Source: a virus. From it: a stretch of DNA of 46,086 bases. Position 1 is the stretch's first letter, and each line of letters opens with the position of its first letter. The notes under the pieces are model-generated. The model was not told where the DNA came from, made no database searches, and saw nothing but the letters and a program-made list of their open reading frames with translations. Position numbers and translations under genes: made by a program. The DNA lies in the IMG/VR virus record IMGVR_UViG_3300047377_000522, positions 1 through 46,086 of that record. The stretch is one strand, 5' to 3'. This document shows, piece after piece, positions 27,183 through 42,060 of the stretch.

Positions 27183-27222
27183 GCCTATATTTATATTATA
27201 GGCTAATATTTTATTATGTCAA
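27183..27222 (-). promoter_or_regulatory. class A promoter with palindromic operator (one mismatch)
   Basis: Minus-strand TTGACA (27217-27222), 16-base spacer, TATAAT (27195-27200). The -10 is inside GCCTATATT-TAT-ATTATAGGC (27183-27203), an inverted repeat that differs by one base from the sites at 29023, 30274, 42087 and 42433. Confidence 0.8.
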
Positions 27223-27469: not shown

Positions 27470-27498
27470 ATTATATTATCTATATCTCAGCATGTCAA
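27470..27498 (-). promoter_or_regulatory. class B leftward promoter
   Basis: Minus-strand TTGACA (27493-27498), 17-base spacer and TATAAT (27470-27475), followed by ATATACATAAACT. It is a diverged copy of the 85-bp regulatory repeat at 29366 and 30581. It drives the coiled-coil gene at 27230. Confidence 0.8.
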
Positions 27499-30738: not shown

Positions 30739-31308
30739 TTAAAAATCATCATGACCAGATGCTTGAGCATACCCTTGACGCCCTTGACGCGCTGGTGGCG
30801 TGGCTCTCTCGCCACTAGGGATAGGCTCCGCGTCAAAAATCGCAGGAGCCTTCTCATCATCTGTAGCATATGACATACCCAAACTATTCCCCTTAATGAT
30901 TGCCCCAGTACGCTCATCTGTAAATTGGTAATAACTAATCTTTGCAATTATTCGCTGATTAAGCAATCGAGACAAAATAGCATTATCAAGCGTGGTGACT
31001 TCAGTAGCTGAGCTAATAGATTTGGTTACCGGACACATAAGCCTAAAAAGTTTATTTTTCGCTTTAACTCTAGTTTTCTCGTTTGCATCATTGACTCTCA
31101 TATTGGAGGTAACCACACGCCCGGTATATTTACCGGACAATATTCTAACACCAATCTTAACCATACTTGGGTCGGTTTGCTCATAACCTTGGACCAGCTC
31201 AGCTTGTGATATGATGCAGTTTGCTACCGTACCATTGCCGATATAATCTTGGTAATCAACTCCACAATCTTCTTCTTTACCTGTTATTGTACTGTCAAAA
31301 AAACTCAT
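30739..31308 (-). CDS. single-stranded DNA-binding protein-like, 189 aa
   Basis: Binds ssDNA in replication or recombination. Predicted OB-fold region at about 20-145 (NGTVANCIISQAELVQGYEQ, VKIGVRILSGKYTGRVVTSN, NQRIIAKISYYQF), then a disordered Pro/Gly/Arg-rich linker and the acidic tip GHDDF at the very C-terminus, the hallmark by which SSBs recruit partners. The codons for this tip are repeated just after the stop. It overlaps the Sak4-like gene by four bases, a pairing often seen in phages because SSB stimulates the recombinase. Confidence 0.78.
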   Translation of the reverse strand: MSFFDSTITGKEEDCGVDYQDYIGNGTVANCIISQAELVQGYEQTDPSMVKIGVRILSGKYTGRVVTSNMRVNDANEKTRVKAKNKLFRLMCPVTKSISSATEVTTLDNAILSRLLNQRIIAKISYYQFTDERTGAIIKGNSLGMSYATDDEKAPAIFDAEPIPSGERATPPARQGRQGYAQASGHDDF

Positions 31309-32090
31309 TTTGTCACCTCTGCTTCTAATTGTTCATGCTGTTTTTTAAGGTATGGGATAAGGTTAATAAGTGGATTTTCTCCAATGTTGAATTGGATACG
31401 GTCTTTTATTCCGTATCTGTTTTTGGATACATGAGCTAAATCTGGTTTTACATGCAGCCAATGCAACCCATCCGAATTAACACGTTTGTTTTCTACAAAT
31501 GCCCCATAATTAATGAATATACATGCATCAACTTTATTTGTATAAACTTTAGACGTGTCTACATTGTTTGTTTTTGTTAGCTGAGGCGTATATCTCATAT
31601 ATTCTTCAGAATCTGGGGGTGAACACCGTTCTGTTTCTACGTGACCGATTAATACAATAGTCATTTTTCGCTTGTCTCTGAGCTCTAAAAGAGAGCTAAC
31701 AAACTGTTCATGTAATTCTCTTAATGCGCCATAGCCTGCACCATATCCCCCAGCACATTGAGAAAGGCTAGCTTTCTTTTCTTTGTTTATAATCTCCTGC
31801 GTGAAAAGCTTGTCCGCCTCAGTTATTGAGTCAATAACCAATGTTCTGAAGTCGTGCTCCTCTTCAAGTAACATTCTAACCACTTCTCGCAAGCTTTCCG
31901 CTTTAGTTGCGACCGGAGTTTGCAGAATATAATCTCTACCAGTTAGAGACTGGGTCCCGTCTTCTGTACGTAAAAAAATAGGCTTATAGAAGTAGCTTGC
32001 TAGCGTTGTTTTTCCTGTTCCCTGTTCACCTATGATCATCAAGAAGGGTGGCGCTTCTTCTGGTTTCTTTGCTATATCATCTAGTTTCAT
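31305..32090 (-). CDS. Sak4-like RecA-fold ATPase, 261 aa
   Basis: Phage single-strand annealing recombinase of the Sak4 (AAA_24) type. Walker A is GEQGTGKT at 21-28; Walker B is in FRTLVIDSITEAD at about 88-100. A further strand with VLIGHVET fits the RecA core. It couples to an SSB-like gene downstream, the usual Sak4 partner. The ATG overlaps a TATAAT hexamer (TATAATG) with TTGACA 17 bases upstream; a transcript from that promoter would begin after the start codon, so translation probably uses a message from further upstream. Confidence 0.85.
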   Translation of the reverse strand: MKLDDIAKKPEEAPPFLMIIGEQGTGKTTLASYFYKPIFLRTEDGTQSLTGRDYILQTPVATKAESLREVVRMLLEEEHDFRTLVIDSITEADKLFTQEIINKEKKASLSQCAGGYGAGYGALRELHEQFVSSLLELRDKRKMTIVLIGHVETERCSPPDSEEYMRYTPQLTKTNNVDTSKVYTNKVDACIFINYGAFVENKRVNSDGLHWLHVKPDLAHVSKNRYGIKDRIQFNIGENPLINLIPYLKKQHEQLEAEVTK

Positions 32091-32208: not shown

Positions 32209-32412
32209 CTATCGCTTAAAGATGTCAACCAATTTATTATAAATATTTTTGGCTATTAAAAAAGGCATTTCAAACAAAACTTTATCAATAAATGCTATGA
32301 TTAAAATCCATATTATACATGGCATAAGCACTATGAACCATCTAAAATAGCCCAAATCGTCAAACAAATTTTCTAATAAATCTATTAACTTCTCTTTCTT
32401 TTCATCTTTCAT
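32209..32412 (-). CDS. small membrane protein, 67 aa
   Basis: The chosen ATG at 32412 has AAGGA ten bases upstream; an in-frame earlier ATG at 32463 would start inside the preceding terminator. Charged N-terminus (MKDEKKEKLIDLLENLF), then a strong membrane helix (WFIVLMPCIIWILIIAFI) and a second moderately hydrophobic segment (MPFLIAKNIYNKLV). A holin-like or membrane-stress function is possible but not shown. The start is fused to a TATAAT hexamer as in the Sak4-like gene. Confidence 0.55.
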   Translation of the reverse strand: MKDEKKEKLIDLLENLFDDLGYFRWFIVLMPCIIWILIIAFIDKVLFEMPFLIAKNIYNKLVDIFKR

Positions 32413-32438: not shown

Positions 32439-32455
32439 GTAATAATTGAATAAAA

Positions 32456-32487
32456 GGCCGCAAAGAAATAGGTCAAACTTTACGGCC
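32456..32487 (-). terminator. intrinsic terminator after NAD+ cassette
   Basis: GGCCGTAAAG and CTTTGCGGCC arms on the minus strand with one mismatch and a 12-base loop, then TTTTATT. It lies about 85 bases after the PRPP-synthetase-like gene; the stretch between holds no gene I can see. Confidence 0.65.
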
Positions 32488-32570: not shown

Positions 32571-33449
32571 TTAAAAATAATTACCAACTTTATTTATATA
32601 ATAAACATTCTCAAAGATAGCAAGGGCTTGTAACCCTTTACTTGCGATCATATGAGTGACAAATAAAGAAACGCTTTCCGCACCCTGTTCTTTTAGCTTA
32701 GAAGCTAATTGAACAAATGTTGCACCGCCATCGCAAATATCATCAACAATTAAGATGGCTTTATATTCATAATTAACATCTTCTAGCTCTGTTTCAAGGA
32801 TTGCTCCGGTTTCAGTACATCGTTTCTTTTTGCAAAATGCAATGGGAATATTTTTATACCCCATGGTATTTTCAATAGCTTGGATAAAATCATTGCACCG
32901 ATCTGATGCTCCCTGATCAGGTGCGCATACCATAAAATTATCTGAATCAATTAATTCTATTAATTCTGTTAATGTTTTTTTATTGTATGGTGATTCTTTA
33001 AATAAATTTTTAGGCAATCTTACAGAGATTTGATTTAAAGTCGGGAATTCATAAAGATTATCAAGCCATGCCGCAGCCTTTTCGCTGTGGATATCTTCAG
33101 TAGATATCTGTTTAAAATCCTGCATAAACCCTGCAAAAATCTTTAAACCGTACGATTGATTTTCATGGAACCTTCTATCTGCTCTTGCATACGGTAAATA
33201 TGGAATATGCAAAGAAATATTTTTCATTCCAATTTTATATTTACTTTTCAATACTTCGACAATATGCACTAGCTCGATAATTTCTTGGTTTGCGTTTACA
33301 ACATCCCATTTTATGGTTAATTCGTCATCAAGAATAGATTCGTGAAAGCTTAAATCTATTAAGCAAGTCCCATCTGAAAAGTCTATTTTTTTTAGGTCGT
33401 GTTTAATGGCTGTAAAATCGTATTTTTCTGATCGATAAAAACTAAACAT
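32571..33449 (-). CDS. PRPP synthetase-like enzyme (Adps candidate of NARP1), 292 aa
   Basis: Ribose-phosphate pyrophosphokinase fold. LPYARADRR at 85-93 matches the ATP-binding loop of PRPP synthetases, and ILIVDDICDGGATF at 232-245 is the PRPP/ribose-5-phosphate loop. Slightly shorter than bacterial Prs (about 315). In phages this gene next to a NAMPT-like gene forms the NARP1 pathway, in which the Prs-like enzyme (Adps) pyrophosphorylates ADP-ribose. It overlaps the NAMPT-like gene by eight bases, so the two are coupled. Substrate preference (ADP-ribose versus ribose-5-phosphate) cannot be read from the sequence by eye. Confidence 0.85.
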   Translation of the reverse strand: MFSFYRSEKYDFTAIKHDLKKIDFSDGTCLIDLSFHESILDDELTIKWDVVNANQEIIELVHIVEVLKSKYKIGMKNISLHIPYLPYARADRRFHENQSYGLKIFAGFMQDFKQISTEDIHSEKAAAWLDNLYEFPTLNQISVRLPKNLFKESPYNKKTLTELIELIDSDNFMVCAPDQGASDRCNDFIQAIENTMGYKNIPIAFCKKKRCTETGAILETELEDVNYEYKAILIVDDICDGGATFVQLASKLKEQGAESVSLFVTHMIASKGLQALAIFENVYYINKVGNYF

Positions 33450-34929
33450 TGATTAATTCCTCGATTTGTTGATTGATGCGGTCGGTTATTTTGTGAAAAT
33501 TGTTATCCATGTTCCCGAATTCTCTGACATATCGGTCGCAAAGGCTATCTCCACAATGAATTGTTATTAATTCTCCACTGCACATTTCTTCACGGCTTAC
33601 ATTATCTTGTACTATATAATTGCCTTTGTACTTCTCAACGTGGAGATAACCTTTAGCTGATTTTTTGCTTTTGCCGGTTTTTGGGTCCTTAAAAATTGGC
33701 GTATCAACTCCATTTTTTACAATATGAGTGGCCTTAATTGCGCTGCTGTGGGTATCTCTAGTTACGTATTGATAAGAATAAGAGCCAATGCCTAAAACAA
33801 CGTCCGGAATAAAGCCTTTTTGAACTAACCTTGTAATGATTTGATCTTGTCTTTCAAGCGTTATGCTGTCACCGTATATTGCCCCGATTGCCGGGTTCAG
33901 CTGAATAAGCCCGTTTTTCTCTTCGCCTCCAAATATATCGTATAACATTTCAATTAACCCTTTGCGCTCGTGTTTGGTATGCGCTTTAGGGTCCCCGGTG
34001 AGTATCTTGACTGGGTCTCCTGAGTCGGGTCTAATAACCACTTTTCCGCCATGTTCTGTATGGTTATGAAAGATTTTATCCTTCAATTTTGGTAGGTATT
34101 CGGTAACCACACGCCAAAAATCCCACGTATCCGATACGATAGAAACTATTGTCTCACGATGATTATCAATAATTCTTCCAAATGCTTCAAACTCATTTTC
34201 TTTACCGTACGCACACATAACAGAATGTTCAGTCGCTGCAACTGATGAAAATCTAAAACCTCCATAATATTCATTAGCCAATACTGCAGCCGGGATATTA
34301 TCTGAACCACTGAAGCAACACAGATGCCCAAATCCGCTCATGGCTGCAGCTTCGCCTCCGAACATGCCACGGTAAGAAAAGTCGTGGCATAAATACGGTA
34401 TAATTTCTTTATCAATAGATGTTTCTTTTTCTAATCGCAATCTATAAGCGAAAGCAGTTGATGCGCTGGTTGACATAGCCCAAATTACCGCACTTAAGCT
34501 CGTTTCTATGTAATTGGTTAGCCATGCAAATTCGGGATGAGTGTTTTCTATTGTTATGCATGGCACGCCATACGGGACTAAAGAGCCTTCTGGCAAAGCT
34601 TTAATCTTTAAGGGTAAATAACCGAGTTTATGCAAAGCCTCAAAATGTTTTAAGTCTGTTTTTCTTCCAAGTGCGCCATCAACAAATTCCCGGTAAGTAT
34701 CTTCTACCTCTTCCCAATTTTGATCAAAGAAATCTTCTCGCCATTGGCCCAGATATTTTTTTATATAGTATGTAATCCCAACAAAAACGACTTTATCTAA
34801 ATGAGTATTGGATAAATCCCCGTTTCTAAAAGTAAAGTTAGAATAAATATATCCCACACCTTCAGGATATAAGGACTGGTGTCCGGTTTTATACATGTCA
34901 GTTTGTAGATAAATTGGTATATTGTTCAT
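33442..34929 (-). CDS. nicotinamide phosphoribosyltransferase-like (Namat candidate of NARP1), 495 aa
   Basis: NAMPT fold and length (family about 470-500). The catalytic His is His235 in ATEHSVM. RPDSGDPVK at 300-308 matches the ribose-phosphate-binding RPDSG region, and YGDSITLERQDQI and GIGSYSYQYVTRDTH are the expected substrate loops. In phages the pair with a Prs-like enzyme makes NAD+ from ADP-ribose and nicotinamide (Namat), reversing NAD+ depletion by host defences such as Thoeris or DSR systems. Alone it would be a NAD+ salvage enzyme. Driven by a consensus promoter at 34962-34990, first gene of its transcript. Confidence 0.88.
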   Translation of the reverse strand: MNNIPIYLQTDMYKTGHQSLYPEGVGYIYSNFTFRNGDLSNTHLDKVVFVGITYYIKKYLGQWREDFFDQNWEEVEDTYREFVDGALGRKTDLKHFEALHKLGYLPLKIKALPEGSLVPYGVPCITIENTHPEFAWLTNYIETSLSAVIWAMSTSASTAFAYRLRLEKETSIDKEIIPYLCHDFSYRGMFGGEAAAMSGFGHLCCFSGSDNIPAAVLANEYYGGFRFSSVAATEHSVMCAYGKENEFEAFGRIIDNHRETIVSIVSDTWDFWRVVTEYLPKLKDKIFHNHTEHGGKVVIRPDSGDPVKILTGDPKAHTKHERKGLIEMLYDIFGGEEKNGLIQLNPAIGAIYGDSITLERQDQIITRLVQKGFIPDVVLGIGSYSYQYVTRDTHSSAIKATHIVKNGVDTPIFKDPKTGKSKKSAKGYLHVEKYKGNYIVQDNVSREEMCSGELITIHCGDSLCDRYVREFGNMDNNFHKITDRINQQIEELINV

Positions 34930-34961
34930 TTTGTTTCTCCATTTCGCTATTTAACAATTTA

Positions 34962-34990
34962 ATTATAATTAAGGTTGTTTATGATGTCAA
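34962..34990 (-). promoter_or_regulatory. sigma70 promoter for the NAD+ cassette
   Basis: Minus-strand TTGACA (34985-34990), 17-base spacer and TATAAT (34962-34967), all consensus. The class A and class B palindromes are absent, so this cassette may be regulated differently from the small early genes. Confidence 0.82.
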
Positions 34991-35002
34991 GGAAATAAGC
35001 GC

Positions 35003-35227
35003 TTATTTCCCATTTTGCGCCTCAACCCTTATAGCGTCATGGTTACTATAAAAATCGTCATCTTGCTGATCTCGGCCTATCAGCCATTTTTGCTCGTACT
35101 CTAAACCCTCGTCTGCTGCATTTCTGAACTTTTCAAGCGCTTGTTGTTCAGTTTCGGCTTCAATTTCGAATATTTCTTGACCGTACATCGTTCCGGAAAA
35201 TGGAACTTCTAATCTAAATTTTTTCAT
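35003..35227 (-). CDS. hypothetical beta-alpha protein, 74 aa
   Basis: MKKFRLEVPFSG, then GQEIFEIEAETEQQALEKFR, a strand-helix arrangement like small DpnD/PcfM-type proteins and the protein at 156-332. The C-terminus is acidic with repeated Asp (GRDQQDDDFYSNHD). AGGAAATTAAAAA gives the ribosome site. Function unknown. Confidence 0.6.
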   Translation of the reverse strand: MKKFRLEVPFSGTMYGQEIFEIEAETEQQALEKFRNAADEGLEYEQKWLIGRDQQDDDFYSNHDAIRVEAQNGK

Positions 35228-35239
35228 TTTTTAATTTCC

Positions 35240-35334
35240 TCAATATTCTTCAATAATTTTATCAATTAGTTTGTCGTCATAATCGCGACTTTCTTCATCA
35301 ATTAAGCAAAACTTATATAATCAGCATCACTCAT
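35240..35334 (-). pseudogene. short reading frame with an apparent frameshift
   Basis: From the ATG at 35334 the frame reads MSDADYIS, then stops. In the neighbouring frame it would continue KFCLIDEESRDYDDKLIDKI to a stop at 35240, giving a plausible 31-aa acidic peptide. The start shares the GGGGGTG junction seen at other gene pairs. This could be a decayed gene, a real frameshift, or a sequencing error. Confidence 0.3.
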
Positions 35335-35932
35335 ACAAGCACCCCCACTGGCTAGCCATCGCATCGGCTAACCCCTGAAATGTTTTACTCCTGAGCTTTG
35401 CCCTCTCAGGACCTGGCGGTAAATAATGTAATCGTTGTATGTCTCTTTGATGCATATTCTTTAATTTCCCTTTAACGTTGTTTGTTGGTTGCAGGCAAGG
35501 CAGCCCTTTCAGCCACAGACAAGTCGCTTTTTTCTCTGTGTGTCCGAACATCCAAGGTTGCACAACTTGGTTTTGATTGACCCCCCCAATGAGATCTTTG
35601 CCGTATTTGTGCATTATAGGGTTTTCAATAGCAACACGAGGGCCATCAATATCTAAAAACAATTTAAAAAATTTAGCGGCATCCTCCAATTTTGCCCACC
35701 GAGTCGGATCTTTATGAAGGTGACAGACCCCACTATTGCACAGGTAGGTACATGGAGGATGGGCAATAATAAGATCCCAACGGTCGTATAACATATCTCT
35801 AACGTCCCCCTGATAGTGAGGACCTGGTTTTTCTGTCGGCAAAATATCGCAGCTAATAGCGTCATGACCTGCGCTTATAAAAGCATCTCTAACAGTACCC
35901 GAGTATTCGCAAGCGACTAACACGCGCATCAT
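35327..35932 (-). CDS. C5-cytosine methyltransferase-like protein, 201 aa
   Basis: Resembles phage DNA cytosine methyltransferases of a short type. The start (MRVLVACEYSGTVRDAF) is a variant of the SAM-binding motif I, AHPPC at 57-61 carries the PPC catalytic loop of C5 enzymes, and VAIENPIMHKY is a variant of the ENV motif. The C-terminal region (QPWMFGHTEKKATCLWLKG) is typical of this phage group. At about 200 residues there is little room for a large target-recognition domain, so sequence specificity is unknown. It starts in the GGGGGTG junction and ends in another copy of it. An anti-restriction role is likely. Confidence 0.72.
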   Translation of the reverse strand: MMRVLVACEYSGTVRDAFISAGHDAISCDILPTEKPGPHYQGDVRDMLYDRWDLIIAHPPCTYLCNSGVCHLHKDPTRWAKLEDAAKFFKLFLDIDGPRVAIENPIMHKYGKDLIGGVNQNQVVQPWMFGHTEKKATCLWLKGLPCLQPTNNVKGKLKNMHQRDIQRLHYLPPGPERAKLRSKTFQGLADAMASQWGCLYE

Positions 35933-35946
35933 ACAAGCACCCCCAT

Positions 35947-36093
35947 TCAATTAGATTGACCGCTGAAATATCTACGTGACTGACTGTAATATGCTGCCAT
36001 CCGCTCTTCGCATCGCATGCAGCGGTCACCGTCGTTAACGCAATCGGAACAGTAAAACTGATACTGTGCACAATTTTTATTAGTGTCTTTCAT
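35947..36093 (-). CDS. cysteine-rich protein, 48 aa (short paralogue)
   Basis: Translation: MKDTNKNCAQYQFYCSDCVN, then DGDRCMRCEERMAAYYSQSR and RYFSGQSN. Nearly identical to the second half of the 86-aa protein at 325-585 on the other strand. It lacks the Cys-containing insert after residue 8. Both copies are followed by the same kind of GGGGGTG junction. Four cysteines (CSDC, CMRC) could bind one zinc. It lies 10 bases ahead of the primase-polymerase gene end. Function unknown. Confidence 0.65.
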   Translation of the reverse strand: MKDTNKNCAQYQFYCSDCVNDGDRCMRCEERMAAYYSQSRRYFSGQSN

Positions 36094-36103
36094 TCTTATA
36101 TTC

Positions 36104-38461
36104 TTACTTAATCAATGATTGTTTAAGTTTAAATCTTTCAAACGTCCTGCCGTTGACGTTTTTTGTTATACTTATAATATAACCCGCTTCAATCAGGTTG
36201 TCAAGTAATTGAGTAATATTTTTATCATCAATTTTGTATTTTTTAACCGTACGCCTGATCTTACTCAGAACCTCCCCTTCCGTCTTATCGCACGCTTGCA
36301 GGATTGAGGCTTTAACCGCTTTCTGTCTGTCCTCCTCGTTTACCGTATCCGGTCCGCCTTTACTGATTACACTCATTAATATTTTAGTCTGAATATCATT
36401 CTGTATTAATGCAAAAGCGTATATAATATCCTGCTCTGTAATCTCTCCACGCAGCGCAGACATTAGACTAGCCACTGTTACCGTATGCTCGAAAGCTCGC
36501 ATATAAAGCGGCTGGATGTCTTCATCTGCATTTTCCGCGCATTGTTCAAAAAATTTATGAATTTGCACCGACCGAGCTTTGGCATGTTCATTGCATGTTA
36601 TTTGGTATGGCTCCCCCCAAAACTCTAAACCGTACTCCGGGTTATAACCTGAATCAGAATCTCTAGCTCTCTGAGTAATCAAATCAAGTTTATTTATGAT
36701 CTCGTTCGGTATCTGCTCCCGTGCGTTGTTATTGTCACCCACCCCATAAAATAAAGGGGGTGGCGTGTTGTCAGTCTCTTTAAATATTAAAAACCTTCCT
36801 ATTAAACCGGTGGCTATACTCTTAATGTTTATTGTCTTATCTAGCCCGATTGGCGTAGATGTTGCATATATATTTAATATAGGGTTTATAATACCCTGTT
36901 CTAAATAAGTTTTCTTTTTACTCTCTCTCTGTTTGTAACAATGCCAGAATTTTTCTTGATCCGGCTCGCATTCCTTAAGCTGCTTCTCTATCCTGTCTAA
37001 TGTGCGGTTTAAATTTTCTTTGAATGAATCTTGATCTTTATGCCGTATAGTGTGCACTTTATCAGTTTTTAAATTCAGCATAGCAGGGGCAATTTTCTGT
37101 ATGTATGTATTTGCTTTAGCGTCATCTATATGATTAAAAATTTTATGAGCCTCATCAATCGCATAGAATACGATTTGGTTACGGTATAGTGACTTGTGCA
37201 TGTCTACGTCACTCGCCATCTCTGAGTTTAGCGCCTTAGCGTATCCCATCCTGATTAATATTTCCTTGGAGACTGAATAAGGGTGGTCCTTCCCCGATCC
37301 GGATGCAGCAATCCCCATACAGTATAATGACAATTTACCGCCTAGTGGGGCTATATATAATCTATTCATGACGCAACTCATAGTCCAGAGTGCGGAAGCC
37401 ACTGCCAACAAAGGCCGCTGTTTAAACGCTGTTCTGTTTATATACTCTACAATATCCCCTATTAAACCGTGTGGCTGTCTAATATCCACTTTATCAGCTA
37501 ATTCTAGTAGTTCATTTTTATTAAATACGGCATCTTGTTTACTAGATTCAAAATACTGATCTATATCAGCAGTTGTATTGTTAAGAGGATGTACATACCC
37601 GTTTTCGTACGCCATCTTGATTAACGTGCCAATGGTTACTGGGGATCCTGAGTTGTTACCAAATGATAGCCACTTTTTATGATTATAATCTGAGCTAGTA
37701 TATTTATCAGATGTTTTACTCCAATTGTCCCAGATAGCGAACGCTGTATTGTCAGTATGATGAATTGCCATGCCTACGTTTAACCATTCATCATACTCTA
37801 AATTTTTATTCGGTACATAATCTAGTAAATCGTTTATATCGCCATCATAATCATTTAATTGGTGAATAGGTGGTGGTTTACGTTCGATTAATTGTATTAA
37901 TGCCGCTGGGGCGTCCTCAATCGAATCTAGAGACGTTGAAAAGCCGTGATCAAGGGTATAGTAGCCCCCTGACTTGTGGAGACTGCCAGAGGCCACGACA
38001 AAGGCCCCTTTACTCAAAAAGTCAATACCCTTGAAATCTTTAAGTGATTTCATGGTTTTTATGGTATCGGGCTTGGTATAGTAAAGGTGAAAACCTCCCC
38101 CGCCGCTTTTAACGCCAACATTGCAATTTTCCAGATCCGGGATGATACCGCATAATTTCTTATAAGACTCTAGACCTCCATTTTTCGGATCCACGTCAAC
38201 GATCAGGTGGTGGTCCTCCAGCAAGAAACCGAATCCTGTCGGGTTTCCACCATTCACAATATCCAATTTCAAATTATCGTATGGCGTTTTATTTCCTATG
38301 TAATTCTGCCAGCCACGATATTTAGGATGCTTGCCAGCAAGACGGCATTCAGTATTACCACATCCGCACACCTGCCCGTTTTTGATTGAATGAAGTTCGA
38401 CTATAGATAGTCCTGCATGCTGATGAGCGAGCAGGCTATCACTAATAAGATTATTCTGCAT
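36104..38461 (-). CDS. primase-polymerase with helicase-like ATPase domain, 785 aa
   Basis: Central replication enzyme. The N-terminal Prim-Pol domain shows DVD at 89-91 (IVDVDPKNGG), SGGGGFHLYY near 117-126 and an FLSKGAFVVASGS segment, as in archaeo-eukaryotic-type primases of phages and plasmids. At about 210-290 a PriCT-like domain (LEYDEWLNVGMAIHHT) follows. Then comes a DUF3987-like ATPase with Walker A in AASGSGKDHPYSV at about 385-395 and YAIDEAHKIF as Walker B. The last 70 residues form a winged-helix-like domain (SKIRRTVKKYKIDDKNITQL). The gene next to the iteron region suggests this enzyme acts at that origin. Confidence 0.87.
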   Translation of the reverse strand: MQNNLISDSLLAHQHAGLSIVELHSIKNGQVCGCGNTECRLAGKHPKYRGWQNYIGNKTPYDNLKLDIVNGGNPTGFGFLLEDHHLIVDVDPKNGGLESYKKLCGIIPDLENCNVGVKSGGGGFHLYYTKPDTIKTMKSLKDFKGIDFLSKGAFVVASGSLHKSGGYYTLDHGFSTSLDSIEDAPAALIQLIERKPPPIHQLNDYDGDINDLLDYVPNKNLEYDEWLNVGMAIHHTDNTAFAIWDNWSKTSDKYTSSDYNHKKWLSFGNNSGSPVTIGTLIKMAYENGYVHPLNNTTADIDQYFESSKQDAVFNKNELLELADKVDIRQPHGLIGDIVEYINRTAFKQRPLLAVASALWTMSCVMNRLYIAPLGGKLSLYCMGIAASGSGKDHPYSVSKEILIRMGYAKALNSEMASDVDMHKSLYRNQIVFYAIDEAHKIFNHIDDAKANTYIQKIAPAMLNLKTDKVHTIRHKDQDSFKENLNRTLDRIEKQLKECEPDQEKFWHCYKQRESKKKTYLEQGIINPILNIYATSTPIGLDKTINIKSIATGLIGRFLIFKETDNTPPPLFYGVGDNNNAREQIPNEIINKLDLITQRARDSDSGYNPEYGLEFWGEPYQITCNEHAKARSVQIHKFFEQCAENADEDIQPLYMRAFEHTVTVASLMSALRGEITEQDIIYAFALIQNDIQTKILMSVISKGGPDTVNEEDRQKAVKASILQACDKTEGEVLSKIRRTVKKYKIDDKNITQLLDNLIEAGYIISITKNVNGRTFERFKLKQSLIK

Positions 38462-38703: not shown

Positions 38704-39080
38704 TGAAAAAAAGCATTTTGACCATTTTGCATGCATTTTGAGCATTTTGCATAGCATTTTGCAACACGAGCAAAATGCTCAAGGCCCGTGATACGGGGGC
38801 TGAAGAGCATTTTGTCATTTTGTACACTATAGCGATAGATATATATATATATATATATATATTTTATATATATATATTATGTGTTTGTTTTGTGTTTTTA
38901 TCTCTATTTATGTGTTTTAAGAAATTTTGTGCAAAATGACAAAATGCTCTGAAAAATGGCCGCAAACCCACGCCAGACGTGGCCTGAGCATTTTGTAAAA
39001 CACGAGCAAAATGCTTGCAAAATGCTATGCAAAATGCTCGAGCATGTTGTTTCATGCTGTGCAAAATGGTCATTTTTTAA
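38704..39080. other. putative replication origin: inverted iterons and TA-rich core
   Basis: The stretch of about 540 bases between divergent genes has no credible gene. Left arm (about 38706-38825): seven CATTTTG and one CAAAATG. Right arm (about 38929-39078): six CAAAATG and one CATTTTG. The arms are imperfect inverted copies of one another, including GAGCATTTTGTCATTTTG at the inner ends. Between them is an AT-rich region with a (TA)n tract at 38836-38880. Each arm also has a small GC hairpin (38783-38800, CCCGTGATACGGGG type, and 38969-38983, CCACGCCAGACGTGG). This is the classical layout of iteron origins with an unwinding element. Confidence 0.75.
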
Positions 39081-39180: not shown

Positions 39181-39369
39181 ATGATTATTCAATTATGTAG
39201 CGATGAAGTTTTAGAATATGCGGTTCGAATTACTGAAGGTGGCGCTTGTGCGTGGGGGATGGGCTGGGGCCAAGGTGACGGGTGGGCGGGCTGTGAAGGT
39301 GAAGGTGACGGATGCGGTATGGGTCGTCCGGAGCAGAGAGGAAACGGAAACGGGGGCGGCTTCGGATAA
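39181..39369 (+). CDS. IQLC/glycine-rich family protein 1, 62 aa
   Basis: First member of a family seen only in this cluster of the window. The head is IIQLCSDEVLEYAVRITE; the tail is mostly glycine with Asp, Trp, Cys and Glu (AWGMGWGQGDGWAGCEGEGD). GGAGATATAAGA is the ribosome site. Its stop overlaps the start of member 2 (TAATG). The head is probably a short helix and the tail is unstructured or forms a repetitive sheet or helix. No known function. Confidence 0.65.
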   Translation: MIIQLCSDEVLEYAVRITEGGACAWGMGWGQGDGWAGCEGEGDGCGMGRPEQRGNGNGGGFG

Positions 39370-39530
39370 TGAATAAAATTCAACTTTGTAGTGATGATGT
39401 TTTAAAGAATACTGTACGGATTATGGATATATATTATTATCTTCGTTTTTGGGCTGAAATAGAATACGGAACGATTGACGATTACGGGTGGGGGCATCGG
39501 TATGGTGATGTGAAAAATAATTTTAGATAA
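39369..39530 (+). CDS. IQLC family protein 2, 53 aa
   Basis: Starts MNKIQLCSDDVLKNTVRIMD, then IYYYLRFWAEIEYGTIDDYG and a short glycine/His tail. The YLRFWAEIEYGTI segment is shared with member 3 (QRFWAEIYYGTIADYG). Here the glycine-rich part is nearly absent, so members differ mainly in tail length. Coupled by TAATG to member 1. Function unknown. Confidence 0.6.
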   Translation: MNKIQLCSDDVLKNTVRIMDIYYYLRFWAEIEYGTIDDYGWGHRYGDVKNNFR

Positions 39531-39534
39531 TTAG

Positions 39535-39563
39535 TTGACATAGTAAAATAACATGATTATAAT
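39535..39563 (+). promoter_or_regulatory. class B promoter, unit 1
   Basis: TTGACA (39535-39540), 17-base spacer, TATAAT (39558-39563), then ATATACATAACTTAAC. The leader repeats AACAAACACTTA and ends in CGAGGAAACAAAA before the ATG. The leader is nearly the same as that at 40482, marking the start of a duplicated unit. Confidence 0.85.
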
Positions 39564-39612
39564 ATATACATAACTTAACAAACACTTAACAAACACTTAC
39601 GAGGAAACAAAA

Positions 39613-40017
39613 ATGAAAGAACAAGAATTAATCAGCACAATTGAAGATCTAGCTGCTACAGTTAAAGATTTAAAATCAGAACTTCATAGAAATTCGGATG
39701 ATACTATCCCTGATTTGGTCGGGAAATATGTTATTGTTCGTTGCCACGATGCAGGCGTGCATTTTGGGAGATATGTTTCTCACAAAGGCCGACAAGTGAT
39801 CCTTGCCGACAGCCGCAGAATGTGGCGGTGGTGGGCTAAAATACAAATGACATTAAGTGCGGTTGCCGAATTTGGTTTAAATGAAGAACGGGAAGAACTT
39901 AGAATTCAATGCACTATTAGCGATAATATAACATTGCTGGAAGCTTGCGAGATCTTACCTTGTACACAAGCTTGCGTTGAATCATTCGCAAGGGTTGAAC
40001 CCCACAATGAACAGTAA
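39613..40017 (+). CDS. DUF6948-like protein, 134 aa
   Basis: N-terminal coiled helix (ELISTIEDLAATVKDLKSEL), then GKYVIVRCHDAGVHFGRYVS and SRRMWRWWAKI, a pattern I associate with the phage domain DUF6948. The C-terminal 45 residues (REELRIQCTISDNITLLEAC onward) contain three cysteines and occur again in the copy at 40561-40698. Good ribosome site (GAGGAAAC). Its stop overlaps the next IQLC gene. Function unknown. Confidence 0.65.
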   Translation: MKEQELISTIEDLAATVKDLKSELHRNSDDTIPDLVGKYVIVRCHDAGVHFGRYVSHKGRQVILADSRRMWRWWAKIQMTLSAVAEFGLNEEREELRIQCTISDNITLLEACEILPCTQACVESFARVEPHNEQ

Positions 40018-40243
40018 ATTGAATGAGCAGGGTCCGGACCGGATCCTGCTTTGTAGTGATGATGTTTTAGCGGCTGCTGTTCGGATTACGGATATTTATA
40101 ATTATCAACGCTTTTGGGCTGAAATTTACTACGGAACGATTGCCGATTACGGGGTTGGGTACGGTTACGGGTTTGGTTCAGGTATCGGGTTTGGTTCAGG
40201 TAGTTGCGGCAATGGTAGAGGATCCGATTCTGGGCGCGGATAA
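40007..40243 (+). CDS. IQLC/glycine-rich family protein 3, 78 aa
   Basis: Starts inside the end of the DUF6948-like gene (MNSKLNEQGPDRILLCSDDV, then LAAAVRITDIYNYQRFWAEI), followed by YYGTIADYGVGYGYGFGSGI and a (G-x) tail with Gly at alternate positions, Tyr, Phe, Ser and a final Arg/Asp mix. Alternating Gly-aromatic sequence is typical of assembly-prone or phase-separating proteins (inference). Coupled to member 4 by TAATG. Confidence 0.65.
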   Translation: MNSKLNEQGPDRILLCSDDVLAAAVRITDIYNYQRFWAEIYYGTIADYGVGYGYGFGSGIGFGSGSCGNGRGSDSGRG

Positions 40244-40473
40244 TGAAAAAAATGAAAAAAATTCAATTATGCAGTAAAATAATTTTATATAATGCCATTC
40301 GAATTGAGGATCTTTTGAGTTACGCAGACGGAGATGGTTACGAAAATGGCAGCGGTTACGGGGAAGGATACGGTGTAGGGTGCGGTAACGATTGGGGTGA
40401 TGGATACGGTAACGGACGGTTACGTTGTTGGCCAAATGGAGATGGGTACGGTAAAGGAGGTAAAATAATTTAA
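40243..40473 (+). CDS. IQLC/glycine-rich family protein 4, 76 aa
   Basis: MKKMKKIQLCSKIILYNAIR, then IEDLLSYADGDGYENGSGYG and a long GYG/GDG-type tail ending GKGGKII. It is the last gene of duplicated unit 1, just before the promoter at 40482. The head motif is looser than in the other members (SKIILYNAIRI). The stop is followed within ten bases by the next promoter. Function unknown. Confidence 0.62.
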   Translation: MKKMKKIQLCSKIILYNAIRIEDLLSYADGDGYENGSGYGEGYGVGCGNDWGDGYGNGRLRCWPNGDGYGKGGKII

Positions 40474-40481
40474 ATAATTTC

Positions 40482-40510
40482 TTGACATAATTAAATGTGC
40501 TTATTATAAT
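40482..40510 (+). promoter_or_regulatory. class B promoter, unit 2
   Basis: TTGACA (40482-40487), 17-base spacer, TATAAT (40505-40510), then GTATACATAACTTAAC. The downstream leader repeats that of unit 1. Confidence 0.85.
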
Positions 40511-40560
40511 GTATACATAACTTAACAAACACTTATCAAACACTCACGAGGAAACAAAAA

Positions 40561-40698
40561 TGAAAGAACGGGAAGAACTTAGAATTCAATGCACGATGAG
40601 CGATAATATAACATTGCTTAAAGCTTGCGAGATATTGCCCTGCACGCAAGCTTGCGTTGAATCGTTCGCAAGGGTTGAGCCGTATAATGAGCAGTAAA
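40561..40698 (+). CDS. internally deleted copy of the DUF6948-like gene, 45 aa
   Basis: ATGAAAGAAC is shared with the start of the full gene at 39613, and then the reading frame jumps straight to the homologue of residue 90 (REELRIQCTMSDNITLLKAC). About 260 bases are missing, with short AGAAC homology at the join, and the frame is intact. The three cysteines are kept, which suggests the C-terminal part has its own value, or that the gene is kept only to start the next one by overlap. Nearly the same leader and stop context as the full copy. Confidence 0.6.
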
Positions 40699-40881
40699 TA
40701 CAATGGCTGGGGTCCAGATCGGATCCTGCTTTGCAACGATGAAATTTTAGAGAGCGCCGTGAAAATCACTGACGTTCGGGGCATCGGGGGCGGTATCGGA
40801 GACGGCGACGGGGACGTCAATGGAAATGGTTTTGGTTTTGGATACGTCACTGGGTACGGTTCGAAAAATGGTGATAGCTAA
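40687..40881 (+). CDS. IQLC/glycine-rich family protein 5, 64 aa
   Basis: Counterpart of member 3 in unit 2: MSSKYNGWGPDRILLCNDEI, then LESAVKITDVRG and the tail GGGIGDGDGDVNGNGFGFGY. The GDGDGD stretch recalls calcium-binding repeats but is too short and irregular for an RTX motif. It begins inside the end of the deleted DUF6948 copy and overlaps member 6 by TAATG. Function unknown. Confidence 0.65.
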   Translation: MSSKYNGWGPDRILLCNDEILESAVKITDVRGIGGGIGDGDGDVNGNGFGFGYVTGYGSKNGDS

Positions 40882-41156
40882 TGAACAAAATACAATTATG
40901 CAAAGATGAGATTTTAGATTATGCCATTCGAATTACTGATCTTTATGGTTTTGGTGACGGTTTAAATATGAGTGAGTGGCTGTTCGGATATGGTGAAGGT
41001 GGCGGCTGTGGCGGCTGTGGACGATTTTCAAATGGATCCGGTGACGGGTCAGGACTGAACCATTGGGAATGTGGCGATGGAGATGGTTTCGGGAAAGGGT
41101 GGGCGGATAGCTGGGGCGATGCAAACGGAAAAGGTGACGACTATTCAACTATGTAG
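40881..41156 (+). CDS. IQLC/glycine-rich family protein 6, 91 aa
   Basis: MNKIQLCKDEILDYAIRITD, then LYGFGDGLNMSEWLFGYGEG and a Gly/Cys-rich GGGCGGCGRF, then GDG and GKG repeats. It is the counterpart of member 4 in unit 2 but keeps a better head motif. Cysteines in the glycine-rich part (CGGCG) could bind metal or form disulfides. The stop lies inside member 7. Function unknown. Confidence 0.65.
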   Translation: MNKIQLCKDEILDYAIRITDLYGFGDGLNMSEWLFGYGEGGGCGGCGRFSNGSGDGSGLNHWECGDGDGFGKGWADSWGDANGKGDDYSTM

Positions 41157-41412
41157 TGATGAGGTTTTAGAAGATGCTTTAGAAGGTGAGTTTCGGCCCA
41201 CTTATGCTAGTGCCCACGGATGTATTGACGGTAACGGGTGCGGTGGAGGGTGTTCACGAGGAAGCGGTCACGAAAACGGCCACGGCTGGGGAGATGGTGA
41301 GGTTCTCGGTTGGCGTTGCCTTGATGGGGAGGGGTACGATAACATTTTACGGTACACCTGCGGAGCAGGATATGAAAGTGGAAATGGGGGTTGTAATTCT
41401 CATGTTAAATAG
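41134..41412 (+). CDS. IQLC/glycine-rich family protein 7, 92 aa
   Basis: The GTG at 41134 gives MTTIQLCSDEVLED, in line with the MNKIQLC starts of the others; an ATG at 41119 is the alternative. The head is shortened (ALEGEFRPTY follows), and the tail is Gly-rich with His, Asn and six cysteines (NGCGGGCSRG, CAGYE-type end). It overlaps member 6 by 23 bases in another frame. Last gene of the duplicated cluster. Function unknown. Confidence 0.58.
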   Translation: MTTIQLCSDEVLEDALEGEFRPTYASAHGCIDGNGCGGGCSRGSGHENGHGWGDGEVLGWRCLDGEGYDNILRYTCGAGYESGNGGCNSHVK

Positions 41413-41433
41413 AAAAATAATTTAAATAATTAG

Positions 41434-41462
41434 TTGACATAGTGAAATAGTATGATTATAAT
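41434..41462 (+). promoter_or_regulatory. class B promoter for the DnaJ-domain gene
   Basis: TTGACA (41434-41439), 17-base spacer, TATAAT (41457-41462), then ATATACATAACTTAAC, very like the promoters at 39535 and 40482. The leader then diverges. Confidence 0.85.
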
Positions 41463-41511
41463 ATATACATAACTTAACGAAACAACCAAATTTAATCACA
41501 AAGGACTAATT

Positions 41512-42060
41512 ATGAAAATTCAAGACGCTTTCAATCTCTTAAAAATCGAAACTGAGCAAGCAACTCACAAAGAAATTAAAAAAGCATTCAAAAAAAGAGC
41601 TTTAGAATTTCATCCCGACCGTGGCGTGGCTGATGATTCAATGATGAAGTCATTATGCGAGGCTAGAGATTTTCTTATTTCTCAACAAGAGCCGGTTTGC
41701 AATACGTATGAATATAAAGGCGAGACAAAACAAGCTAAGTTTGACCCTGAGTTTTCCGACAAAATCTATGCAGCAATATCGGAAATTCAAGACCTTGAAG
41801 GCCTTATTATTGAGATCAGAGGCTCGTGGGTTTGGGTTTCTGGCGAGACAAAGCAACACAAAGAAGAGTTGAAAAAAGCAGGCTTTAAATTTTCATCTAA
41901 TAAGTGTGAGTGGTATTTTAACCCTACACCATTCAAAGCTAAAACAAGACGAGGAGGGAAAACTTTTTCAAGCGATGAAATCCGAGACATGCACGGATCA
42001 ACATTTGTTAAAAAATGTACTAAAATCAATGGTTACCATAGAAAAATGGTAGCGGCATAA
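41512..42060 (+). CDS. J-domain (DnaJ-like) protein, 182 aa
   Basis: Residues 1-55 are a J domain (FNLLKIETEQATHKEIKKAF) with the essential HPD at 34-36, so it should stimulate the host Hsp70 (DnaK). The rest has no zinc-finger region; a C-terminal domain (LEGLIIEIRGSWVWVSGETK, KKAGFKFSSNKCEWYFNP) similar to those in other phage and plasmid J-domain proteins probably binds a client. It may redirect DnaK to phage replication or assembly. It has its own class B promoter and an AAAGGAC ribosome site. Confidence 0.8.
   Translation: MKIQDAFNLLKIETEQATHKEIKKAFKKRALEFHPDRGVADDSMMKSLCEARDFLISQQEPVCNTYEYKGETKQAKFDPEFSDKIYAAISEIQDLEGLIIEIRGSWVWVSGETKQHKEELKKAGFKFSSNKCEWYFNPTPFKAKTRRGGKTFSSDEIRDMHGSTFVKKCTKINGYHRKMVAA

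Follow-up and report, generated by a model that had tools for sequence, protein, structure and literature searches.

The IMG/VR virus record IMGVR_UViG_3300047377_000522, which stems from an uncultured phage and was analysed over its entire 46,086 bases (hereafter the window), carries a two-gene cassette that, judged from its sequence, very probably (at about 85%) encodes a NARP1-type NAD+ reconstitution pathway. NARP1 would thereby be known from an uncultured sheath-tailed phage of 46 kb as well, for the right half of which (positions 24001-46086) no related phage was detected in INPHARED by megablast. Since NAMPT-fold relatives of the query occur in 1,915 and Adps-like matches in 1,440 of 50,697 phage records, the finding alone leaves the present understanding unchanged. 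The points of interest are an unusual aspartate (Asp38) in the adenine clamp of the first enzyme, the reversed gene order and a palindrome that may be private to the cassette promoter.

Both open reading frames are full length and free of stop codons (Table 1), and they show the features named in the first-pass annotation: VDDICDGGATF in the Adps-like protein as well as ATEH235 and RPDSGDP (residues 300-306) in the Namat-like protein. The gene overlap noted there is also real. The ATG of adps lies within the 3' end of namat, and translation of the two genes is probably coupled via this overlap. Purine-rich Shine-Dalgarno-like stretches are located a few bases 5' of both starts (GGAG for namat, GAGG for adps). 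The genes form a one-operon layout, in which the consensus promoter previously ascribed to the cassette was recovered with a match at 12 of 12 positions. The predicted terminator corresponds to a terminator-like hairpin with a 10-pair stem, a 12-nt loop and a T run, at least 84 nt beyond the adps stop codon, which the stock terminator scan, limited to loops of up to 8 nt, did not report. Its position fits the 3' end of the cassette mRNA, though a promoter-like site (32563-32536) intervenes between the adps stop codon and the hairpin. An Rfam search near the cassette gave no credible match.

Table 1. Coordinates of the cassette, its predicted expression signals and neighbouring genes in the window.
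Feature	Position	Strand	Description and basis
Gene for single-strand binding protein	30739-31308		Leftward block; weak match
Gene for Sak4-like annealing protein	31305-32090		Leftward block
Terminator-like hairpin	32450-32487	-	GGCCGTAAAG-12 nt-CTTTGCGGCC, then TTTTAT; about -16 kcal/mol
adps-like gene	32571-33449	-	Putative ADP-ribose pyrophosphate synthetase, 292 aa; second in cassette; phrog_619, motifs, tree
namat/adps overlap	33442-33449	-	8 nt, ATGTTTAG; direct reading
namat-like gene	33442-34929	-	Putative nicotinamide ADP-ribose transferase, 495 aa; first in cassette; phrog_448, NF006629, residues, tree
namat ribosome-binding site region	34930-34945	-	ATGGAGAAACAAA, upstream of ATG; direct reading
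Sigma-70-type promoter	34962-34990	-	TTGACA-17-TATAAT, 12/12; promoter scan
Perfect 20-bp palindrome	34991-35010	.	GGAAATAAGCGCTTATTTCC; abuts -35 box of cassette promoter; only copy in window; palindrome scan
DNA methyltransferase-like gene	35327-35950		Leftward block
Prim-pol/helicase gene	36104-38461		Leftward block

The 495-aa protein matches phrog_448, which comprises phage nicotinamide phosphoribosyltransferases (E 4e-164), and exceeds the cut-off of NF006629 (425 versus 405 bits), while the 292-aa protein matches phrog_619, the phage ribose-phosphate pyrophosphokinases (E 4e-58). All three matches are far above chance level. PADLOC matches to PsyrT and ShosT were dismissed as reflecting the common phosphoribosyltransferase fold only.

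The residues of the SPbetaL1 Namat that contact nicotinamide and NAD+ have been listed (PMC12774641), and this list was compared with an alignment of the window protein and 25 other proteins. The equivalents of D13, Y15, F189, R192, D215, A242, H245, R306, D308, G360, D361, G390 and S391 are identical in the window Namat. The contacts to nicotinamide, ribose and phosphate are all kept, the sole change being Ser in place of Ala362, which is the norm of the family (nearly all members). Furthermore, GSX-phi-X-phi-X-phi-TRD with aromatic residues at the third and seventh positions has been described as the signature separating Namat from NAMPT (PMC12774641). The window protein has this clamp helix as GSYSYQYVTRD (residues 382-392), its Tyr384 and Tyr388 occupying the two positions that stack on adenine; according to the alignment it does not have the NAMPT-type helix devoid of an aromatic clamp. 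The corresponding segment reads GGxLLQ in the phage NAMPTs of KP15, RB43, ValKK3 and phiM7 and a GGGLA variant in Karma, and none of these NAMPTs has an Adps nearby.

With regard to the active-site residues selecting ADP-ribose, which had been proposed for inspection, the clamp-helix signature is present but the clamp-loop residue D38 is atypical. Asp38 is the third residue of the clamp loop and aligns to Arg40 of SPbetaL1. This position is held by Arg, Lys or Tyr, a typical though non-defining Namat trait, in 166 of 183 Namat-type sequences and by other residues in the remaining 17, which include the window protein as the only one with Asp; the Arg three residues before is invariant (183/183). 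In SPbetaL1, Arg40 stacks on the adenine and forms a salt bridge with Asp400', and the clamp loop was described as variable (PMC12774641). On paper, D38 facing D392' in the window Namat would be unfavourable. Single clamp mutants of the SPbetaL1 Namat lose only 1.3-1.7-fold, double mutants up to 16.6-fold (R40A/F392G) (PMC12774641). Since single clamp mutations are mild and the helix is intact, the window Namat is expected to be active, perhaps with a lower selectivity owing to Asp38. The AlphaFold five-row models of the two proteins were of low confidence (mean pLDDT 59 and 64), and because the clamp-helix segment 382-392 remained below a pLDDT of 50 no conclusion on D38 was drawn from the model.

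The pair might alternatively be derived from NARP1 while its adenine clamp has been weakened by Asp38, with a Namat that prefers PRPP or uses both donors, as in a relaxed or decaying NARP1. Such a state would be in line with the uniqueness of Asp38 among the 183 relatives, the loss seen in R40A/F392G, the long branches of both window proteins in the trees described below and the Y29* stop in nrsB of Vibrio cholerae phage ICP1, which was found in 60 of 75 isolates in the absence of Nezha (PMC11559045). However, both reading frames are intact, the clamp-helix aromatics and all core residues are retained, single clamp changes are mild and 17 of the 183 sequences do without Arg, Lys or Tyr at this position; a weakened clamp is thus considered highly improbable. 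The natural Asp38 variant could help to determine to what extent the two-part adenine clamp, as published, is required.

The Adps-like protein scored 100 bits against the Prs model TIGR01251 (96.8 in a second scan), below the curated cut-off of 113; Prs exceeded this cut-off in 14 of 14 control genomes. It has in common with canonical Prs (E. coli b1207, B. subtilis 1dkr) the two-domain PRPP-synthetase fold and most catalytic residues, but differs in the loop (DICDGGATF versus DMIDTGGTL); its motifs VDDICDGGATF and TH.I.SKG are of the Adps type, the Prs equivalents being VDDMIDTGGTL and THPIFSG. A Foldseek search with the Adps model retrieved PRPP synthetases in all of the 50 best matches (E 1e-12 to 1e-9), but with TM values of only 0.30-0.39. 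The protein is divergent, sharing 24-34% identity with the named references, and carries Cys211 at a position occupied by Asp in most others. A single-sequence scan with it for close relatives found none. Since the window Adps is divergent and no published residue set defining Adps specificity was found, its substrate, presumably ADP-ribose, was assigned by company and placement.

In the Namat tree (73 sequences, five NAMPT references) the window protein falls within a 16-member clade (100/100) together with ICP1 NrsB, JSF10, Akh-2 and K406, and a split with 100/99 support divides every Namat-type protein from the five NAMPT references (phage NAMPT/NadV). The Adps tree (70 sequences, three Prs sequences) places the window protein in a 95/95 clade with ICP1 NrsA, JSF10, K406, Barba19A and Ab_121, apart from the three Prs sequences, which form their own group (100/98). 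Both window proteins are located on long branches. The resemblance to NARP1 claimed in the first-pass annotation is supported by these trees and by the clamp-helix signature of Namat: the two proteins group with NARP1 members (support 100/99 and 95/95) and not with ordinary Prs or salvage-type NAMPT.

Grouping of the window Namat with K406/L042/L080 was rejected (p-AU 0.004). The window Adps leans to the K406/L042/L080 group plus Barba19A (93/88), and its placement with the ICP1 group is compatible with the data (p-AU 0.09). As the latter was not rejected, the data do not establish separate origins of namat and adps, as in a recombinant pair. In another virus record (IMGVR_UViG_3300046740_000245; L004:32-2081, + strand) overlapping Adps-like and NAMPT-like genes were observed, the latter with the NAMPT-type helix GGLLLQQHNRD, and the encoded NAMPT-like protein is sister to all Namats (100/99). 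This protein possibly stands between NAMPT and Namat; alternatively, an Adps may there be paired with a PRPP-type enzyme.

The trees also bear on an ordinary salvage route, in which a phage Prs would make PRPP, NAMPT/NadV would make NMN and the host NMNAT would finish the synthesis, raising NAD+ for phage metabolism. Both window proteins belong to the same superfamilies as Prs and NAMPT, the NF006629 model that was passed is that of PRK09198 ('nicotinate phosphoribosyltransferase'), and the SPbetaL1 Namat itself retains NMN formation from PRPP (PMC12774641). Taking into account, however, that the Prs cut-off was missed, that Prs and phage NAMPT are excluded in both trees, that the clamp-helix aromatics are present and that no NMNAT (NMN adenylyltransferase) domain was detected in six genes scanned around the cassette, salvage appears very unlikely. 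The phage NARP2-like pairs of NAMPT and NMNAT (e.g. in Sinorhizobium phage phiM7 and Caulobacter phage Karma) likewise employ a NAMPT-fold enzyme for NAD+ precursors but have a nucleotidyltransferase as partner, no Adps and a GG.LL or similar helix in place of GSYSYQY.

Among experimentally tested pairs the best match to the NARP1-like cassette is NrsAB (ORF228/ORF229) of ICP1, a much larger lytic phage (126 kb), in which nrsAB is required against the NADase Nezha and NAD+ is higher during infection (PMC11559045). NrsB is the closest Namat (55-57% identity; 55% over 98% of the length), and its clamp helix GSYTYQYVTRD deviates by one S/T change. The clamp loops differ (RHGKY in ICP1, RNGDL in the window), NrsA shares approximately 34% identity with the window Adps, and the order in ICP1 is nrsA-nrsB with a 33-nt gap, in contrast to namat-adps with an 8-nt overlap. 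The NARP1 of SPbetaL1 (Adps WIT26982, Namat WIT26983; crystal structures matched as 9w5x/9w5w) is also a two-gene module and restores NAD+ from ADP-ribose and nicotinamide (PMC12774641). Its Namat shares 46% identity as well as the core and the clamp helix with the window protein, whereas its Adps is encoded upstream and shares only 26% identity, and Arg40 stands in place of Asp38.

Based on the homology to ICP1 NrsAB and SPbetaL1 NARP1, the pair most likely turns the products of NADase defences back into NAD+. A single bicistronic mRNA from the promoter at 34990 would yield Namat and then, through coupling at the overlap, Adps. By analogy with the characterised relatives, a host NADase defence of the TIR, SIR2 or SEFIR type would split NAD+ into ADP-ribose and nicotinamide. 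Adps would transfer pyrophosphate from ATP onto ADP-ribose to form ADPR-PP, which Namat, presumably a head-to-tail dimer employing phospho-His235 chemistry, would join with nicotinamide to NAD+. NAD+ would thus be restored in two steps, allowing infection to proceed.

Adps and Namat genes are adjacent in most related loci. After removal of near-copies, adps lies upstream in 53 of 57 adjacent viral pairs and downstream in four (the window, L048, L085 and L096); the respective numbers for adjacent bacterial pairs are 38 and 7. The order namat-adps is therefore a minority arrangement, but not unique. It also occurs in L048, with a 4-nt overlap and within a recombination gene block. A group of bacterial Namats with the helix GS[YF]TYEYVTRD was observed in Bacteroidota loci such as L137, L141, L148, L158 and L189, in which Adps is often several genes away, downstream or outside the fetched flank. 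This suggests a NARP1 branch of bacteria in which the two genes have become less tightly linked. Furthermore, macro-domain (ADP-ribose-binding), Appr-1-p-processing or phosphatase genes (L012:1169-1672, L016:4377-4856, L023:5441-5914, L018:2011-2457) were found in or beside the phage NARP1 or NAMPT loci of Barba19A, PaYy-2, phiM7 and K406, where they possibly provide accessory steps feeding or protecting ADP-ribose. No such gene was detected among the scanned neighbours of the window cassette.

The cassette is located inside a leftward early replication/recombination block (Table 1). Genes for an exonuclease of the Cas4 type and for a DNA helicase follow further along the window. The opposite arm holds the virion module of a contractile, sheath-tailed phage, comprising genes for terminase, portal, sheath and baseplate. 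Promoters matching at least 11 of 12 positions number 21 in the window, compared with 1.55 expected from first-order Markov simulations; strong promoters are therefore common and not special to the cassette. Promoters of both arms bear two operator-like families. The class A palindrome GCCTATAAT...ATTATAGGC (GCCTATAATNTAATTATAGGC) lies over the -10 box of the promoters at 27222, 29062, 30313, 42068 and 42414 (spacer 16), and the class B type TAATTAGTTGACA...AACTAATTA occurs at those at 27498, 29431, 30646, 39535 and 41434 (spacer 17), with a partial copy at 40482.

As claimed in the first-pass annotation, the cassette promoter carries neither of these palindromes, a lack that was there taken as a sign of a mobile accessory unit. 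A newly arrived unit outside the phage's own operators would be compatible with NARP1 function, and the low GC content of adps (0.322 versus 0.378 in the window) points in this direction, although namat is not low (0.388). However, both operators are also missing from about nine other strong promoters (24048, 32117, 32228, 32438, 32563, 36204 and others), including those of neighbouring replication genes, so that their absence is no mark of a mobile unit. Moreover, a separate 20-bp palindrome adjoins the promoter of the cassette, no integrase adjoins the cassette, and no empty-site relative was found, neither by the INPHARED megablast nor in viral_contigs, where the primase and Sak4-like proteins of the window matched no relatives. 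The inference of mobility is not supported on these grounds, and recent arrival seems unlikely.

The palindrome at 34991-35010 is the only perfect palindrome of at least 16 bp in the window other than (AT)n, with 0.13 of at least 20 bp expected, and its half-site was not found elsewhere in the window. It is plausibly a private operator of the cassette promoter. Together with the reversed order and Asp38 it could be read as a NARP1 variant in which the adenine contact is lost or replaced, donor selectivity is altered (dual PRPP/ADPR-PP or another ADP-ribose derivative) and a palindrome-bound regulator of its own takes the place of the two general operator classes, a combination that we regard as quite unlikely. 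The pair rather appears to be a divergent but otherwise ordinary new member of NARP1 and not a new kind.

Several minor features were observed in the surroundings. At 32563-32450 and 32228-32130 (- strand) a near-consensus promoter (TTGACA-16-TATACT) in each case precedes a strong hairpin of terminator type by no more than about 40-80 nt, and no gene is obvious in the interval. These sites are candidates for small RNAs of approximately 67-80 nt, for which Rfam gave no credible match. The perfect promoters at 32117-32089 and 32438-32411 (- strand) end in TATAATG, the ATG of which is the predicted start of the next reading frame, namely that of the Sak4-like protein and a small membrane-like one ending at 32209. 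Since a transcript from such a promoter could not contain that ATG, the true starts are probably located downstream (for the Sak4-like protein e.g. at Met18, MIIGEQGTGKTT), unless the promoters have another role. The region 39183-41526 is rich in repeats, with several copies of a short reading frame and glycine-rich repeats (families D1, D3, D5, D6, D8, D13 and D16) as well as repeated class B promoters, which suggests a tandemly amplified array of small genes. A 24-bp (AT)n run at 38839-38862 lies between the early gene block that points leftward and the rightward one.
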